Below are positions 11,818 through 61,089 of a stretch of 64,000 bases of DNA, piece after piece. The position numbers and the translations under genes are program-made. The stretch is from Halolamina salifodinae (GTDB lineage Archaea > Halobacteriota > Halobacteria > Halobacteriales > Haloferacaceae). The DNA lies in NCBI RefSeq assembly GCF_017874235.1, contig NZ_JAGGLC010000005.1:1-64000 (forward strand). The letters run 5' to 3'. The stretch's first letter is position 1. The number at the start of each line of letters is the position of its first letter. The notes below the pieces were generated by a model that was not told where the DNA came from, did no database searches, and saw nothing but the letters and a program-made list of their open reading frames with translations.

Positions 11818-12091
11818 GTGGGACTGGGAACTCACTGACACCGCACGGCGTGATTTTGACGGCCTCGACGAGCACGCACGTGACCGTATCGCCAGCAAAC
11901 TCAACGAAATTGTGACCGACGAATGGCGAGATCCGCCTGATCATCTCGAACCGCTGCAGGGGACACCTCACCAAAAGCTTCGTGTTGGGCCGTTCCGACT
12001 CGGATGTCGTACCGACCGAACCGAGCACGTCCTCTACGTCCTACGGATCCGAAAACGCGGTGGCGATGCGTATCGCAGTGACGACGATTGA
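11810..12091 (+). CDS. ParE/RelE-family toxin
   Basis: A 93-residue protein of the ParE/RelE fold. WELTDTARRDFDGLDEHARDRIASKL matches the two N-terminal helices. LQGTPHQKLRVGPFRLGCRTDRTEHVLYVLRIRKRGGDAYR matches the four-strand sheet with basic residues at the active face. RelE-like mRNA cleavage and ParE-like gyrase inhibition cannot be told apart here. The start codon overlaps the antitoxin stop region by 8 bases, implying translational coupling. Confidence 0.85.
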   Translation: MSEWDWELTDTARRDFDGLDEHARDRIASKLNEIVTDEWRDPPDHLEPLQGTPHQKLRVGPFRLGCRTDRTEHVLYVLRIRKRGGDAYRSDDD

Positions 12092-12339
12092 TGATACAGA
12101 CGAACCTCTTTTCGCCTCGGGTGCGCTTCGCGCACCGCTCGACGAAAACCCGTTCATGCCAAAAAGCCGGTCTCGCTACGCTCGACCGGGGAATCGCGCT
12201 CACTACCGGGTCCTTCGGACCCCTCGTTCGCGCGAACGCTCGTGGTTACTGCACATACCTACTTACTGCACATACCTACTTACCGGCTGTTTCACTACAG
12301 CCCGTTTCGTACGAATAGGGGTCAAGAGGGCCGAACAGT
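12092..12339. repeat. Gene-free stretch with hairpins and a 17-bp tandem repeat
   Basis: There is no credible gene between the toxin and hisE. The stretch contains perfect short hairpins with tiny loops: 12120-12136 (7-bp stem GGTGCGC, TTC loop), 12208-12222 (6-bp stem GGGTCC, TTC loop) and 12225-12238 (6-bp stem CGTTCG, 2-base loop). A 17-bp unit TTACTGCACATACCTAC is present twice in tandem at 12246-12262 and 12263-12279. Open frames crossing the region are of the arginine/proline-rich shadow type. Confidence 0.6.
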
Positions 12340-14987: not shown

Positions 14988-17318
14988 TCACTCGCTCGTC
15001 GGCCCCCGCGCCGGATCGAGCAGTTCCACGGGATGGGTCGCCGGCCGGTCGAGGAGGTCGGTCAACTGCTCCTCGCAGGAGGTCCCGCTGGCGACGACCC
15101 GGCGGTCAGTATCGTCGTTGGCGCCTTCGCCGGCGCCGTCAGCCGCCTCGACCTCCGCGGCCAGCGACTCGCCGACGGCGACGCTGAGGTCGTAGTAGTC
15201 GGCCTTGTAGCCGAAACTGCCGGCCATCCCGCAACACTCCGCCTCGGTCGTCGCCACGTCGTAGCCGAGTCGGCCCAGCACCGCCTCGGTGTGGGCGTCG
15301 AGGCCCAGCGTGCGCTGCTGGCAGTGGGCGTGGTAGGTCAGTTCCTCGCCGTCGCCCCGCGTGAGCGGAGCCGGGTCGACGCCGTTCTCGAGCAGGCCGT
15401 AGACGTACTCCAGCACCTCGAAGCTCCCGTCGGCAAGGTTCTCGGCCTGCTCCGCGGGGAGCAGTTTGTCGTACTCTGCGCGGACCATCGCGAGGTCCGA
15501 GGGTTCGACGAAGACGAGGTCTCGACCGGCGTTGACGGAAGCTTCGCTCCCGTCCGCCAACCGGAACCGCTCTCCAGCGGTTCCGGTGACGTTGAGGTGC
15601 GGGGCGAGCGCGTCGGCGACGGCCTCTGCCTTCTCGCGGGCGGTCGCGATCATCCCCTGCGAGAACGGGGCACGGCCGGTACCGGTCACGTCAGCGACCC
15701 GGACCGGCACACCCAGTGCTTCGAGCGTCCGGACCGCCGCCTTACCCCGGTCCACGTCGACGTGGTTGGTGAACACGTCCGGGACGAGCACCGCCTCGCG
15801 GTCGGTCAGGGGCGATGCGACCCCGGGGGTTCGGCGCTGGTCCCAGTCCCGGAGCGTCTCGCGCCGGAACTCCGGGAGGTCGCGCCGGGCGTCGATACCG
15901 AGACCACGTTCCAGCAGCGCCCGGGCCGGGGCGCTGTCGGCCAGCCAGTTCGAAACCGGCGCGGTCGCGCTTCCGAGACGCGCGAGCGTGTCGATGTTGC
16001 CGAACGCGCGCTTGCCCCAGTCCATCCCCGCCGACTCGGAATCGGGGACGAGGCCGTCGGCGAGGCTCTCGATCCCGCTTGGGTCGGCGCCGCGGTTGCG
16101 GCGGTCCCGGACGACGGTGTTGATCCACGGCACGTCGATCTTCACGGGGCAGGCGTTCACACAGCGCGAACAGCCGGTACAGAGATCGTTGAACTCGACG
16201 GACGCCGGCGATATCGAGCCGGCGTCGGTGCCGTCCGACGCCTCGCCGCCGGTTCCGGCCTCCCACCCCGTCGCGATGCCGCCGGTGTAGGTTTCGCCGC
16301 CGAACGCGTGGCCGCCGACGTGCTGGAAGTTCGCACAGGAGTTGCTGCAGGCGCCACAGCGCACGCAGTAGAGCGTCTCCTTGAGGTCCTCGTCCTCGCG
16401 CATCTCGAAGCGGCCGTTGTCGACGAGCACGAGGTGGAACTCGCGGTCCTCGGCGCCGCCGCCGATTGGCTCCTCGGAGTCGAAGTCGATGGTCGGGGAG
16501 TCCGTCGGCGGCGTGAGGAGGGAGACGTACTGGGCGATGTCCTGGCCCGTCGCGCTGCGGGCCAGCAGTTCGATCATCGGTCCGAGTTCGTCGACGGAGG
16601 GGATGAGTTTCTCCACGCCCGCGACGGCGACGTGCGTGTCGGGCGTGACCGCACACTTGCGGGCGTTGCCCTCGTTGGTCACCAGCGCGAGCGTCCCGCT
16701 CTCGGCCAGCACGAAGTTCGCGCCGGTCATCCCCACGTCAGCGTCCCGGATGCGCTCGCCGAGGTGGTCGCGAGCGAACGCGGTGAGTCCCTCCGGTGTT
16801 TCGAGCGGTTCCGCGGGGTCGAACCGGGCGTTGAACAGGTCGGCGATCTCGTCGGTCGACTTGTGGAACCCCGGCGCGATCAGGTGGGAGGGCGCCTCGT
16901 CGGCCACCTGCAGGACGAACTCCCCGAGGTCGGTCTCGGTCACGTCGATGCCCCGCGCGGCGAGGTGTTCGTTGACGTCGAGTTCCTCGGTCGTCATCGA
17001 CTTCGACTTCACGAGGCTGTCGGCGTCGCCACAGACCTCGGCGATGTGCTCGTTCGCGTCGGCGGCGTCGTCGGCGAGGGAGACCGTGCCGCCGTTCGCC
17101 TCGACGCACTCGCGGACCGTCTCGATCAGTTCCGGCAGGCGCTCGATGGCGTCCTCCTTGATCTCGCGGGCCTCGGTTCGGAGGCGCTCGCCGTCCACGT
17201 CGGCCATCGCGGCGTAGCGCCCCTCGTTGAACCCCTGCGCGTTCTGCTTGACCGTGGGGCCCTCGGTTTCAAGCAGCCGTCGGATGCGCTCGGCACGGCT
17301 CTCGTTGTCGGCGCTCAT
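14988..17318 (-). CDS. Fused LutB-LutA-type iron-sulfur oxidoreductase (L-lactate utilisation)
   Basis: A 776-residue fusion. Residues about 30-300 form a LUD domain as in LutB. Two [4Fe-4S] ferredoxin motifs follow, CVRCGACSNSCANF and CTGCSRCVNACPV. The C-terminal third is a LutA/GlpC-like CCG region with HAHCQQ and ECCGMAGSFGYK. In bacteria LutA and LutB are separate subunits of the LutABC L-lactate oxidation complex. Here they are one chain, and lutC lies just upstream with a 4-base overlap. The electron acceptor is unknown. The first CCG repeat has lost its cysteines (VLVPDVFTNHVDV). Confidence 0.87.
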   Translation of the reverse strand: MSADNESRAERIRRLLETEGPTVKQNAQGFNEGRYAAMADVDGERLRTEAREIKEDAIERLPELIETVRECVEANGGTVSLADDAADANEHIAEVCGDADSLVKSKSMTTEELDVNEHLAARGIDVTETDLGEFVLQVADEAPSHLIAPGFHKSTDEIADLFNARFDPAEPLETPEGLTAFARDHLGERIRDADVGMTGANFVLAESGTLALVTNEGNARKCAVTPDTHVAVAGVEKLIPSVDELGPMIELLARSATGQDIAQYVSLLTPPTDSPTIDFDSEEPIGGGAEDREFHLVLVDNGRFEMREDEDLKETLYCVRCGACSNSCANFQHVGGHAFGGETYTGGIATGWEAGTGGEASDGTDAGSISPASVEFNDLCTGCSRCVNACPVKIDVPWINTVVRDRRNRGADPSGIESLADGLVPDSESAGMDWGKRAFGNIDTLARLGSATAPVSNWLADSAPARALLERGLGIDARRDLPEFRRETLRDWDQRRTPGVASPLTDREAVLVPDVFTNHVDVDRGKAAVRTLEALGVPVRVADVTGTGRAPFSQGMIATAREKAEAVADALAPHLNVTGTAGERFRLADGSEASVNAGRDLVFVEPSDLAMVRAEYDKLLPAEQAENLADGSFEVLEYVYGLLENGVDPAPLTRGDGEELTYHAHCQQRTLGLDAHTEAVLGRLGYDVATTEAECCGMAGSFGYKADYYDLSVAVGESLAAEVEAADGAGEGANDDTDRRVVASGTSCEEQLTDLLDRPATHPVELLDPARGPTSE

Positions 17319-26939: not shown

Positions 26940-27830
26940 TCAGGCCGACTCGTTGCCGCTGGAGGAGTCGGACTCGATGGTGACCGAGACCGATCCCTGC
27001 CCAGCGGGGGTTCGGATGCCGTAGTCGATCTCCTGCCCCGGATCAGCATCCTCCGTCGACGCCTCGACGCTCTCGGTGCCCGATTCGCCGGGATCGAGGG
27101 CGATATCGAACCCTTTCGGCCTGTAGAGCGGGTACGAGAAGTTCACCGCGCCGCGGAAGGTGCCGGGCCCGTCGCCGACGTTCTCGGCAGTGATCGCGAT
27201 GTCGAACGTCGTGTCCGGCGCAACCGTCTCGGGAGTGTCGACGGACCACTCCCACGCGGGCGGGGGCGACGTTGCGAGGTCGACGTCGAGGGCCCACTCT
27301 GCCGGCGCGGGGTCGCGGTCGAGCCGAAGCGTCGGCGCCGAATCGAGTTCGGCGGGTATCCCGAAGACGAGCCAACCTCGGGGTTCCGCGTCCTCGTTCT
27401 CGGGCCAGTACTGGCTGCCGGGGACGGCGAGGTCGACAAGGTAGCCGTACTCGGGTTCGATTGGCGCGTACGACTCTCCATCGGCGACGAGCGTGAACGC
27501 GGACTTCGCGGGCGCCGAGTCCGCCGGCCGGGCCTCACCAGAACGCGTTGCGTTCTGGTTGCCCGCAGAGCGTGGCTCTGCGACGTCGACGGTGACGAAC
27601 ACGAACTGGCCGTCCGCGGCCCGGATGCCGTTCCAGTCGACCTGCTCGATGTGGCGGTAGGCGTACTGGACGGCGGCGGCCTCGACGATGACGTTCGACG
27701 GGGCCGCGGTTCCGGGTGCGGTGGTCGTCGGCGGCGATTCCGAGTCGGTTCCCGTTCCGGGCGTCTCGCCGACACAGCCGGCGAGCCCCGCGGCTGCGAG
27801 GGTCGCGAGATACGTTCGTCTGGAGGGCAT
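26940..27830 (-). CDS. Tat-type lipoprotein of unknown function
   Basis: A 296-residue secreted protein. The N-terminus MPSRRTYLATLAAAGLAGC has twin arginines at 4-5 and a lipobox with Cys19, so it should be exported folded by the Tat pathway and lipid-anchored. A Ser/Thr/Pro linker follows, then a beta-rich region with a CARDB-like part (FDIAITAENVGDGPGTFRGAVNFSY). Residues about 84-98 (NQNATRSGEAR region) are encoded by two perfect hairpins of the same type as the intergenic array just upstream of the gene. Confidence 0.8.
   Translation of the reverse strand: MPSRRTYLATLAAAGLAGCVGETPGTGTDSESPPTTTAPGTAAPSNVIVEAAAVQYAYRHIEQVDWNGIRAADGQFVFVTVDVAEPRSAGNQNATRSGEARPADSAPAKSAFTLVADGESYAPIEPEYGYLVDLAVPGSQYWPENEDAEPRGWLVFGIPAELDSAPTLRLDRDPAPAEWALDVDLATSPPPAWEWSVDTPETVAPDTTFDIAITAENVGDGPGTFRGAVNFSYPLYRPKGFDIALDPGESGTESVEASTEDADPGQEIDYGIRTPAGQGSVSVTIESDSSSGNESA
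27538..27581. repeat. Two perfect hairpins inside the lipoprotein gene
   Basis: 27538-27558 has 9-bp arms CCAGAACGC around GTT. 27565-27581 has 7-bp arms GCAGAGC around GTG. Both have the arm-3-base loop-arm plan of the array at 27877-28183, and both lie in coding sequence without breaking the frame. Confidence 0.85.
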
Positions 27831-27876
27831 CAGTCGACGTTCGGTCGTTCGGGGTAAGTGCTTTCTGCGGACCGAC

Positions 27877-28183
27877 CTTTTGCTGCGGGCCCCGGAGGGC
27901 CCTTGCAAAAGCTCGACCATCACCGGAACGCTTCGCGTTCCGGTTGGTAGACGAGAGCTTGCTCTCGTCGACATCACCAGAAGCCGGAGGCTTCTGGTTA
28001 GCAGCCAGAAATCTTCGATTTCTGGCGACAAAAGCCTGCGTCGGCCCCTCCGAGAGAGCGAAGCTCTCTCGTGCTCCCGCTCACTCCGTTCGCGGGAACT
28101 ATCGGGGCCTCCTTGGCCCGCTCACTTCGTCGCACGGGCGACCCGTGCGTCGCCCGTGCTGCCTGCGGGGCCTTCGGCCCCGC
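27877..28183. repeat. Array of nine perfect hairpins in a gene-free region
   Basis: Nine inverted repeats follow one another in about 307 bases. Most have 8-10-bp perfect arms and 2-4-base loops: 27877-27911 (nested), 27922-27944, 27950-27969, 27976-27998, 28004-28026, 28051-28071, 28075-28097 (6-bp arms, 11-base loop), 28132-28159 (11-bp arms) and 28165-28183. The arms differ in sequence, so this is not one repeat copied; it is the structure that recurs. The remainder of the gap, 28184-28403, holds nothing I can identify. Confidence 0.9.
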
Positions 28184-28403
28184 TCTGTTCGCGGTGAGAA
28201 AACCCTTGAGCAGTATCCGCGAGCGAAGCGAACGGCTACCGGGAACGAAAAACGGGAGAATCGGCAGTCAACGGAGCGGTTCGTGGGGCGGTGGGGACGG
28301 CTGTGAAGTTAGTCTCCTAACTCCATCTCGCGGGTCGCGCGAAGCGCTCCCCGCTCGATATCGAGGCGGTTTGCCTCGTCGGAGGCGAGTTTTCCCGCCT
28401 CGC

Positions 28404-30059
28404 TTACATCGCGCCGCCCATGCCACCCATACCGCCCATGCCGCCGGCGCCGCCCTGCTCCTCGTCGCCCGAGGTCGACAGGTCGCCGGCCGCGATGATG
28501 TCGTCGATTTTGAGCACGAGGTTCGCGGCCTCGGTGGCGCTGGAGAGCGCCTGCTCCTTCGAGTGGGCCGGCTCGACGACGCCAGCCTCGTAGGTGTCCT
28601 CGACCTCGCTGCTGAACACGTTCAGCCCCGCGGTCTCGTCGCCGGCCTCGTGGGCCGCGCGCAGGTCGACCAGCGTGTCGATGGAGTCCAGCCCGGCGTT
28701 CTCGGCGAGCACGCGGGGGACGAGTTCGAGCGAGTCCGCAAACGCCTCGACGGCCAGCTGCTCGCGGCCGGAGACGCTGTCGGCGAACTCGCGCAGGCGG
28801 CTGGCGAGTTCGACCTCGATGGCGCCGCCGCCGGCGACCACGCGGCCGTCCGAGACGGTAGTCGCGACGACATCGAGCGCGTCGGAGACGCCGCGCTCGA
28901 GCTCGTCGACGACGTGGTCGGTGGAGCCGCGCAGCAGGAGCGTCACGCCGTGGGAGTCCTCGCCCTCGACGTAGAACAGCTCGTCGCCCTCGTCACGGCG
29001 GATGGAGCCGTGGCCGAGGTCGGCGCTGGAGAGGTCCTCGAAGTTGGAAGCGACGGAGCCGCCGAGCACGTTCTTCAGGAAGCCGATATCCGAGGACTTC
29101 ACGCGGCGGACCGCGAGGATGCCCTCCTTGGCGAGGTAGTGCTGGGCGAGGTCGTCGATACCCTTCTGGCAGAACACCACGTCCGCGCCGGTGGCGGCGA
29201 TGGCGTCGACCTTCTCGCGAAGCTCCTGCTCCTCCTGGTCGAGGAACGACTGGAGCTGATCCGGCGAGTCGATGGAGACGTTGGTGTCGACGCCGGCCTC
29301 CTCGACCTCGATGGCGGCGTCGAGGAGGAGCGTGTCGGCGTCCTCGAGTTCGCTGGGCATGTTGTCGTGGACCGGGTCCTTCGAGACGACCGCGCCGTTG
29401 AGCAGGTCGCTCTCGGAGACCGCACGGCCCTTCTGGGTCTCGATCTTGAGGTTCGCGAGGTCGACGACGTGGCTGCCGTCCTCGGCCTCGACGGTGACGG
29501 CCTCGACGGCCTCGATGATGAGCTCGGCGAGATGCTCCTTGTCGAACTCCGCGCCCTTGCCGGTCATCGACGTCTCGGCGACGCTCGCCAGCAGGTCGGT
29601 GTCGCTCGGGTCGACGTCACGCGAGATGTCCGCGACCTCCTCGCGGGCCTGCTCGCTTGCGAGGTGGAACCCCTTGATCACGGCCGTGGGGTGGATGTCC
29701 TGCTCGAGCAGGTCCTCGGCGTTTTTCAGCAGCTCGCCAGCGATGGCGACAGCGGTGGTCGTCCCGTCGCCGGCCTCCTCCTCCTGGGTCTCGGCGACTT
29801 CGACGATCATCTCGGCCGTCGGGTTGTCGATGTCCATCTCCTCGAGGATGGTGACGCCGTCGTTCGTGATGGTGACGTCGCCCATCGAGTCGACGAGCAT
29901 CTTGTCCATCCCTTTCGGGCCGAGCGTGGATCGGACGGCTTCGGCCACTGCGCGGGCCGCGGAGATGTTGTACTCCTGTGCGTCCTTGTCCTTGACTCGC
30001 TGGGAGTCCTCCCCCATGATGATCATGGGCTGGCCGCCGCTTCGCTGTCGTTGACTCAT
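28404..30059 (-). CDS. ths: Thermosome subunit (group II chaperonin)
   Basis: ATP-driven protein-folding chaperonin subunit of 551 residues. TLGPKGMDKMLVDSMGDVTITNDG and the GDGTTTAV motif bind and hydrolyse ATP. The C-terminus is the flexible Gly-Met tail ending GGMGGMGGMGGAM. Other paralogous subunits are not in the window. The ATG at 30057-30059 is preceded by a strong TTTATATA box. Confidence 0.96.
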   Translation of the reverse strand: MSQRQRSGGQPMIIMGEDSQRVKDKDAQEYNISAARAVAEAVRSTLGPKGMDKMLVDSMGDVTITNDGVTILEEMDIDNPTAEMIVEVAETQEEEAGDGTTTAVAIAGELLKNAEDLLEQDIHPTAVIKGFHLASEQAREEVADISRDVDPSDTDLLASVAETSMTGKGAEFDKEHLAELIIEAVEAVTVEAEDGSHVVDLANLKIETQKGRAVSESDLLNGAVVSKDPVHDNMPSELEDADTLLLDAAIEVEEAGVDTNVSIDSPDQLQSFLDQEEQELREKVDAIAATGADVVFCQKGIDDLAQHYLAKEGILAVRRVKSSDIGFLKNVLGGSVASNFEDLSSADLGHGSIRRDEGDELFYVEGEDSHGVTLLLRGSTDHVVDELERGVSDALDVVATTVSDGRVVAGGGAIEVELASRLREFADSVSGREQLAVEAFADSLELVPRVLAENAGLDSIDTLVDLRAAHEAGDETAGLNVFSSEVEDTYEAGVVEPAHSKEQALSSATEAANLVLKIDDIIAAGDLSTSGDEEQGGAGGMGGMGGMGGAM

Positions 30060-60568: not shown

Positions 60569-61089
60569 TCTTGTGTAGTGCTCACTGGTTGATTATACCG
60601 AACGTATATCACTCTGTCCAAAAGGAATCCTTCTCTAGCTCAGGCCAAAACTTCGGCTACTGTATTGCGTCTCAGGTAAGCAGAGGGTCGGGCAACGAGG
60701 CTATGAGATCTAGTCTCGTCTCCATGATCCTGCCGATATCCGCCTCCGAAGGGTGGTATCCTTTCTGGCTGCTGCAAGGGGTAGTGTTCACAAAAGCAGT
60801 TTCCAGCAGTAGAGTTGGGAGGAACAGTTGAAAGCCCTCGGCTGTCTCGGCTTCTACTCGCGGGCCGAAGGCCCGCTCGTACGGCCCGAGGCGCTTAGCG
60901 CCTCGCTGCGCACGTTCGCTCCTTCCAGTCGCTCTCATGCTTGCGTCGCCGGAGTTCGCCGAGGCGCCTCGCCCTTTCAATCCAGCAGGAATACCGGCTG
61001 TACCAGAGTGCGACTAGCTAGTTTCAGCCCTTATCTGAACACCGCCCAGCGGGGGAAGTGTGGGCGCGCAACGGTTGTGGTGCCGAGTC
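60569..61089. other. Gene-free stretch with hairpins before the structured-RNA-like segment
   Basis: There is no convincing intact gene. Two perfect tiny-loop hairpins lie at 60860-60876 (7-bp arms GCGGGCC, GAA loop) and 60887-60905 (8-bp arms CGAGGCGC, TTA loop). A minus-strand segment around 60690-60830 reads TAEGFQLFLPTLLLETAFVN and then TTPCSSQKGYHPSEADIGRI. It could be a transposase scrap but is not recognisable. Confidence 0.45.

Follow-up and report, generated by a model that had tools for sequence, protein, structure and literature searches.

A hairpin array in Halolamina salifodinae as a probable pile-up of very small mobile double-hairpin elements

The dense hairpin array at positions 27877 to 28183 of the window (the whole 64,000-nucleotide stretch of Halolamina salifodinae DNA analysed here, positions 1 to 64,000 of contig NZ_JAGGLC010000005.1) is best read, with a probability of roughly 0.85, as made up for the most part of stacked insertions of a tiny mobile element, a non-autonomous double hairpin that duplicates 2 bp of its target. 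Dispersed copies, empty sites in congeners, matching flanking dinucleotides, class-wide spread, tandem copies, and copies within genes that are read in one frame are all observed directly. No dedicated host function is expected for the array.

The hairpin array

Seven perfect inverted repeats (arms of at least 7 bp, loops of 2 to 4 bases) occur in 27877-28183, all of them within 27922-28183:

27922-27944, loop TTC
27950-27969, loop TT
27976-27998, loop GGA
28004-28026, loop TTC
28051-28071, loop GAA
28131-28149, loop CGA
28165-28183, loop TTC

Shuffling these 307 bases 500 times with dinucleotides preserved gave a mean of 0.08 and a maximum of 1; the hairpin density is real and far above chance. 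The original prediction had counted nine perfect hairpins with arms of 8-11 bp and loops of 2-4 bases. The dense array stands, with arms of 8-10 bp and loops of 2-3 bases, but the count is lower: an eighth hairpin (27887-27902, 6-bp arms, loop CGGA) surfaces only at a 6-bp threshold, there is no ninth perfect hairpin in 27877-28183, and the longest arm there is shorter than 11 bp.

The excess over shuffled sequence extends beyond the array, as the prediction had proposed to check. In 443,533 bases of the same genome, a biased sample of stretches mostly picked for holding matches and compared with a single shuffle, repeats with an arm of exactly 10 and a loop of exactly 3 numbered 42 against 0 in shuffled sequence. 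Loop-3 repeats with arms of at least 8 bp numbered 106 against 12, and other loop lengths (0-2 and 4-6) were 1.4- to 3.4-fold above the shuffle. Such a spike at one size points to a discrete unit superimposed on a broader surplus of short inverted repeats. For loops of 1 and 4-6 bases, perfect short repeats number about three times those in one shuffle, and the double-hairpin element does not account for them.

Layout of the locus

The features of the locus, and one further element copy in the window, are as follows (HP1 and HP2 are the two hairpins of an element):

27877..27917, no strand, element A, an older dispersed hairpin repeat (TTTTGC...GGGCCC cgga GGGCCC...GCAAAA), host of the insertion
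27918..27919, plus strand, target dinucleotide CA, left copy (empty site in congeners G004 and G005; CA again at 27972-27973 and 28029-28030)
27920..27971, plus strand, first double-hairpin element: TC, HP1 (27922-27944, loop TTC), spacer, HP2 (27950-27969, loop TT), GA
27974..28028, plus strand, second, tandem element: TC, HP1 (27976-27998, loop GGA), TAGCA, HP2 (28004-28026, loop TTC), GA
28029..28030, plus strand, target dinucleotide CA, right copy (total insertion against the empty site, 27920-28030, 111 bp)
28051..28071, no strand, single hairpin CGAGAGAGC gaa GCTCTCTCG, inside another genome-recurrent stretch
28128..28184, plus strand, candidate diverged double hairpin as read from the sequence: CGTC, GCACGGGCGA/TCGCCCGTGC, TGCC, GCGGGGCC ttc GGCCCCGC
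26940..27830, minus strand, lipoprotein-like host gene, no Pfam family
27535..27585, plus strand, element copy in frame in the lipoprotein gene, 51 bp or 17 codons, VAEPRSAGNQNATRSGE on the minus strand (covariance model, 48.5 bits)
28404..30059, minus strand, gene upstream of the intergenic region
15529..15592, minus strand, element copy with one 10-nt loop in an apparently coding gene (49.9 bits, E 1.4e-12)

The gene at 28404..30059 is, judged by eye, what we take to be a thermosome subunit gene, and the order of this gene, the intergenic region and the lipoprotein gene is conserved in five congeners. Named relatives of the window lipoprotein are Halovenus species, two relatives coming from a scan of genome contigs. 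Element A matches nine places in the genome, the window copy included. It is regarded as the host and target of the insertion, and both G004 and G005 already have it, nearly identical, at the corresponding position. At two other places in the same genome (L015 and L016) this older repeat is found without an insert.

A covariance model of the double-hairpin element matches the first copy, 27920..27971, only in part (26.8 bits). The second, 27974..28028, scores 72.7 bits (E 3.4e-19), and this copy belongs to the alignment from which the model was built. Folded as single-stranded DNA, the two tandem elements form four hairpins, with a DNA fold z of -9.9. The suggestion of cruciform-prone DNA thus holds as far as folding goes and explains neither the origin nor the distribution of the hairpins. 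Several places in the genome match 28029-28126 or parts of it. The candidate at 28128..28184 is absent in G004 and G005 and gives no match to the covariance model; from its sequence it might just possibly be a further, diverged double hairpin of the same grammar.

Hairpins of the same form had also been noted at 12120-12238, at 60860-60905 and within a coding region. The last of these is probably 27537-27582, the element copy in the lipoprotein gene. The other two lie within stretches that match other places in the genome. Positions 12050-12300 are 97.8% identical over about 180 bp to another locus (L023), so that the hairpin site there is also part of a dispersed repeat. Positions 60800-60960 match three loci (L024, L014 and L018) at 82-89% and, by sequence, appear to be another hairpin-bearing repeat family. 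At L023:13601-13862 the hairpin CGCCACGC nnn GCGTGGCG occurs four times, 81 bases apart, with loops TCC, TTC, TCC and TCC.

The repeat family and its spread

The arms had been described as unrelated in sequence, with only the form recurring and no repeat family. This does not hold, and a mobile repeat family had not figured among the possibilities raised. The array hairpins are members of a repeat family, and four of them make up two tandem copies of a dispersed 55-bp element. The region 27500-28420 matches 47 places in the 2.75-Mb genome (itself included), the best other match having 88% identity over 228 bp. The element has a simple grammar of about 55 bp: TC, a 10-bp stem with a 3-nt loop, TTGGC, a second 10-bp stem with a 3-nt loop, and GA. 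The 10-3-10 hairpins use a small set of arm words, for example ACCAGAACGC, ACCAGAAATC and GACGAGAGCC, and are often paired, with loop centres 28 bases apart and a shared spacer of TTGGCA, TAGCA or TGCC. Of the outer word CCAGAANNCNNNGNNTTCTGG alone the genome has 65 copies; two congeners have 23 and 27, and another four have 3-5 each. Its reversed-pattern control occurs in none of the 7 genomes.

Among 55 fetched copies the loop is GNA in 17, TNC in 19 and another triplet in 19, and a C-G pair closes each of both hairpins in 35 of 36 copies. GNA loops on G-C pairs form extraordinarily stable DNA mini-hairpins, as reported in PMC4686876. The features that are kept are the stems, the closing C-G pairs and GNA-type loops; on this basis the element would be mobilised in trans by a putative enzyme that probably recognises single-stranded foldback DNA.

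The covariance model finds the element in 7/7 genomes of the genus and in 108/116 genomes, representing 45/45 genera, of the class Halobacteria. Among 80 genomes drawn from across the phylum, 11 belong to the class, and 9 of these match. Outside the class (n=69) there are 4 matching genomes, all in one family (f18, 4 of 5 genomes), and the other 64, a set uncontrolled for base composition and so without a high-GC control, give 0. Model matches were counted on both strands among the matches listed, and such counts are rough rather than copy numbers. The strict word CCAGAANNCNNNGNNTTCTGG is rarer than the model, occurring in 87/292 class genomes and 33/77 genera (reversed control 0). The array DNA itself, 27860-28110, matches 86/119 genomes of the family.

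Copies in f18 have AT-rich stems with the grammar intact; one of them (L245) consists of two 10-bp stems with triloops and TGGCA between them. The stretches from this family, which belongs to the same phylum (L245-L255), hold AT-rich hairpin pairs, with up to 41 listed model matches per genome. In one scan of viral contigs a 23-bp word was found in 3 stretches, one with perfect arms and a model score of 29 bits; none of the three holds the canonical element. No report of an archaeal element family of this kind was recognised in the main texts of the open-access literature, supplements and subscription papers lying outside that scope.

Empty sites and target duplication

Alignment of the orthologous intergenic regions, another check that had been proposed, gave a divided answer: gene order is kept in all five congeners, and an empty site is seen in two. 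In G004 and G005 the site reads CTCGAC-CA-AAAGCC. The window has a 111-bp insert there, composed of TC, hairpin, spacer, hairpin, GA and CA, and then the whole series again. G003 and G006 have different sequence between the two genes, and the intergenic region of G002 is short; all three are without the element and give little information on the insertion site. Two copies would thus have landed in tandem inside the older hairpin repeat, in the interval between the thermosome and lipoprotein genes, and another copy would have landed in the lipoprotein gene itself. The 51-bp insert in the latter is missing in G003, G004, G005, G006, Halovenus aranensis and H. salina (L031 and L032), and G002 has no readable segment at that site.

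Mapping of 54 element loci of the genome to relatives, in a sample that covered at most about 29% of G005 and small portions of four more, gave further empty sites, as insertions in Halolamina salifodinae relative to G005 DNA. About six are clean to the base by eye, and the remainder are ambiguous or lie within other repeats. For the copy at 15529-15592 no ortholog of the gene was found in the sampled relatives, and this copy is a candidate insertion.

A 2-bp target duplication, mostly of CG, is supported by the dinucleotides that flank the element. From 86 detected pairs, 44 canonical copies were drawn (40 from the genome and 4 from G005; spacing 27-28, TC on the left and RA on the right, with four of other right end set aside), and the ends TC and GA/AA were removed before comparison. 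Flanking dinucleotides are identical in 32/44 copies (CG/CG 24, CA/CA 5, TG/TG 3); the shuffled mean is 21.6 and 0/20,000 shuffles reach 32, a test that overstates independence because some of the copies lie in paralogous composites. The other 12/44 mismatch, seven having GG on the left and CG on the right and five being other combinations. The duplication is just 2 bp long, and CG is frequent in the host DNA. The bases duplicated at insertion would be CG most often, and also CA and TG. A first reading as a 5-bp target duplication was dropped; 2 bp together with the TC and GA ends explain the 5-base overlap seen in alignments.

Mobilisation and related elements

Two transposase families were considered as mobilisers. 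The IS110 (DEDD) recombinase is found in 0/7 genus genomes (4/14 control genomes are positive), and on that ground it was rejected as mobiliser. Y1 transposases occur in 5/7 genus genomes; their presence does not follow element number, and the two genomes without any Y1 transposase still bear elements. At six Y1 loci, of 19 matches, the covariance model finds no full-length element. Neither element number nor these loci fit a Y1/IS200 mobiliser, which is judged improbable rather than rejected outright.

The same observations bear on the possibility that the element is a PATE, an IS200/IS605-derived remnant with near-terminal palindromes mobilised by Y1, as in Haloquadratum walsbyi. The two are alike in size, some terminal-only PATE remnants in that organism being 52 bp (PMC3119063), and in having palindromes, and Y1 genes are present in most of the genus genomes. 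PATE, MITE and SMR of Haloquadratum walsbyi are, like the present element, small mobile haloarchaeal repeats without a transposase. As described there, PATE and SMR lack target duplication, PATE is reportedly tied to a short targeting sequence, and SMR are about 80-110 bp with inverted terminal repeats (PMC3119063). In contrast, here the TC to the left of HP1 is missing from empty sites, 2 bases are duplicated, and full-length elements are lacking at the six Y1 loci. Set apart in this way, by comparison with published descriptions, an origin as PATE is unlikely. A MITE has target duplication and terminal inverted repeats in common with an autonomous transposon; here the 2-bp duplication is supported, the ends consist only of TC...GA, and no autonomous partner was found among the IS110 and Y1 families searched.

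The closest published kind appears to be the CGTC-tagged REP super-family (Di Nocera et al. 2013, PMC3733652), which includes Rickettsia conorii RPE-4 and RPE-6, hence some Rickettsia palindromic elements, and Neisseria dRS3. In that account no dedicated transposase is reported, mobilisation is left open, and the hosts given are Bacteria only. Both have an unpaired CGTC (variants TGTC and CCTC) at the foot of the hairpin, and both have short stems. In both, units mostly come as dimers, some copies are intragenic, and an associated transposase is lacking, for which two families were searched here. In 36 distinct copies the TC of the tag is present in 36/36, being a selection criterion, the preceding G in 31/36 and the C in 27/36; variants are TGTC, CATC and GGTC, with CCTC in the lipoprotein copy.

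Several details differ from the published description of CGTC REPs (PMC3733652). Stems are 10 bp rather than 8-9, and loops 3 nt rather than 4-5. The first and second pairs of CGTC REPs are A-T; here the first pair of HP1 is A-T or G-C and the second mostly C-G. Their short unpaired tail is mostly CCA, to which the TTGGC or similar sequence after HP1 and, seen from the opposite end, the TGCCA or TGCTA after HP2 in many copies may or may not correspond. The spacer between partners is about 5 nt and the hosts are haloarchaeal rather than bacterial. The empty sites further suggest that, here, the CG in the tag comes from target duplication and only the TC is part of the element, another point of contrast. 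By that definition the element is not a plain member of the CGTC REPs, yet it works like one.

Other comparisons rest on published descriptions as well. Like Rickettsia palindromic elements, the present element is palindromic, lies in frame in unrelated genes and encodes a peptide (PMC10969869, PMC3733652). In contrast, those elements are about 150 bp, and this one is about 55 bp, archaeal, and built as a double 10-3-10 hairpin with concerted arms. Yeast mitochondrial GC42, a 42-nt hairpin, shares short flanking repeats, constrained stems, variable loops, and merger or shuffling of units (PMC4478555); it differs in being mitochondrial, whereas in-frame gene insertions are also found here. The repetitive hairpin elements of sponge mitochondria are likewise sometimes double, with conserved stems and variable loops (PMC2800124), and differ in being organellar.

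Concerted changes in the stems

The stems vary almost entirely in matched pairs. In an ungapped alignment of 37 copies (33 from the genome and 4 from G005; 36 distinct), 98.8% of 720 stem cells are paired, and two-sided change occurs at 17/20 pairs. Between copies, 150 stem cells are changed on both sides, 1 on one side, and 9 are unpaired. Shuffles of the 3' letters are 78.5% paired; none equals the real alignment in pairing, in two-sided changes or in covariation score, though they give more pair types (28.4 against 24 observed). With slid partners as controls, pairing falls to 28-42%. Because copies were chosen partly for pairing, the inner 2 bp, which are free of the outer pattern, were tested separately: they are paired in 53 of 55 copies (the part of the 65 CCAGAANNCNNNGNNTTCTGG copies that lies in fetched DNA), with a shuffle mean of 19.5 and a maximum of 31. 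Only 1/720 stem cells holds a G-U pair. In two cases between related copies the loop is inverted from TTC to GAA, beside other loop changes.

Stem changes that are two-sided and barely ever one-sided favour copying of arms at the DNA level over selection on RNA, which would be expected to leave G-U intermediates, of which a single one was found. We infer that one arm is rewritten from the other, judging from the pattern among copies rather than from an ancestor-descendant pair at one site. Template switching at replication could do this, the loop inverting or mutating at the same time, and stems would then stay perfect while their sequence drifts. In yeast, template switching gives just such arm homogenisation and spacer inversion (PMC8604942).

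Palindromes generated by replication or repair were among the possibilities first raised for the array, and could in principle be the whole story, with template switching making perfect hairpins de novo at quasi-palindromes and the array as a hot spot. The concerted arms with almost no intermediates, the two loop inversions, the yeast precedent and the general excess of short inverted repeats all fit such a process. It does not supply the fixed size of 10-bp arms and 3-nt loops, the same arm words in 33/77 genera, or the shared spacer and clean insertions with empty sites, which need a copied element. Template switching accounts for stem maintenance, not dispersal, and would act on an existing mobile element; as sole cause, a mutational origin is already contradicted by the empty sites and is very improbable.

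A functional RNA has still less in its favour. In this reading the hairpins, transcribed with the 3' region of the thermosome gene, would terminate transcription, stabilise the RNA or mark sites of processing. The array does lie in an intergenic place after a gene and folds strongly, and a role at the RNA level has been proposed for bacterial CGTC REPs (PMC3733652). The earlier idea of a structured untranslated RNA is nevertheless opposed by the near absence of G-U pairs, by copies within coding genes, by congeners without an insert at the locus, and by the lack of any Rfam match up to E = 1 over 27000-28600. A simple scan found no terminator-like site, using a bacterial consensus on an archaeal host. 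The probability of this reading is very small.

Copies inside genes

At 12/54 element loci of the genome there is coding DNA on both sides in one frame. Of the six possible frames, a single one is used for the element at all of these (12/12), and it yields a peptide of the ..NQNAxRSGD type, for example VDESRGDSSANQNAPRSGD. These calls use a codon model trained on 116 open frames; the remaining loci were left uncounted (7 whose strands conflict, 8 with coding DNA on one side, 27 other). Two earlier approaches were set aside. A first small codon model, now superseded, had given 17/54 loci as coding, and choice of frame by acidic residues had given 21 loci, of which the later model puts two on the opposite strand and one is intergenic. 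A second script, which finds elements in its own way, agreed on the frame for nine copies of the genome, one copy in G002 and three from other genera; the few entries it lists on the plus strand are the same elements seen from the opposite end.

In the in-gene copies inspected, the target CG spans a codon boundary (e.g., GAC GTC). The peptide frame is open in 37/37 aligned copies, the other five frames in 4, 27, 30, 30 and 31. This openness is not universal, since a stop interrupts it in 15 of the 44 copies examined from other genera. Pfam families are found in 15/17 scanned host proteins, mostly enzymes: FtsJ (twice), AA_kinase, shikimate dehydrogenase, M32 peptidase, FAA hydrolase, NIF3, phosphomannomutase, DHDPS, aldo/keto reductase, Usp, DUF58, UDG, SDR and ABC. 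Within genes, it would be mainly the frame-keeping copies, encoding a hydrophilic peptide of 17-19 residues, that survive.

Individual copies illustrate this and its exceptions. A gene for an FtsJ-type methyltransferase holds two tandem elements in the genome (L018:9769-9871) and one in G002 (L087); the single element is made of the outer parts of the tandem pair, which looks like merger of units or deletion. The 15529-15592 copy uses a different frame from the remaining copies. Near the start of another gene, presumably surE-like as judged from that start, the copy L138:6562-6608 brings a stop and a frame change, and a congener has the empty site; this copy appears to break its gene. The peptide motif NQNxxxSGD is also seen within protein sequences of other haloarchaeal genera (L105, L110 and L118), whose hosts we take to be glutamate synthase and histidine kinase.

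That the array might be an old protein-coding repeat, decayed in the intergenic region, draws on the peptide frame being open in all aligned copies, intergenic ones included, and can be dismissed almost entirely, as in-gene copies sit in unrelated genes and the original prediction's alternative of a decayed gene in relatives meets, in G004 and G005, an empty non-coding site and no gene remnant.

Implications

Short palindromic repeats inside genes were already known from Rickettsia and several other bacteria (PMC3733652). Here the same kind of repeat is seen throughout a class of archaea; empty sites are present, a 2-bp duplication of the target is probable, and one frame is strongly preferred. 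A broader proposal is speculative, and it is rather doubtful that all its parts hold together. In it, one family of about 55 bp would have colonised nearly all Halobacteria by way of a single-stranded foldback in which arm templates arm. Stems would be rewritten and triloops re-drawn, drifting to AT-rich forms in low-GC relatives under a kept grammar, and one preferred hydrophilic peptide of 17-19 residues would be carried into enzymes of core metabolism. The bacterial CGTC tag would also be target CG plus element TC, and CGTC REPs and RPEs together would form one trans-domain class of 2-bp-duplicating hairpin transposons.

The movement of CGTC- and RPE-type repeats becomes testable in haloarchaea that can be cultured and modified. 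Stems that vary almost only in matched pairs are a natural record for measuring template-switch mutation, and they carry the caution that compensatory changes need not mean selection on RNA. The insertions themselves are ready-made experiments on the tolerance of core enzymes for a foreign peptide.
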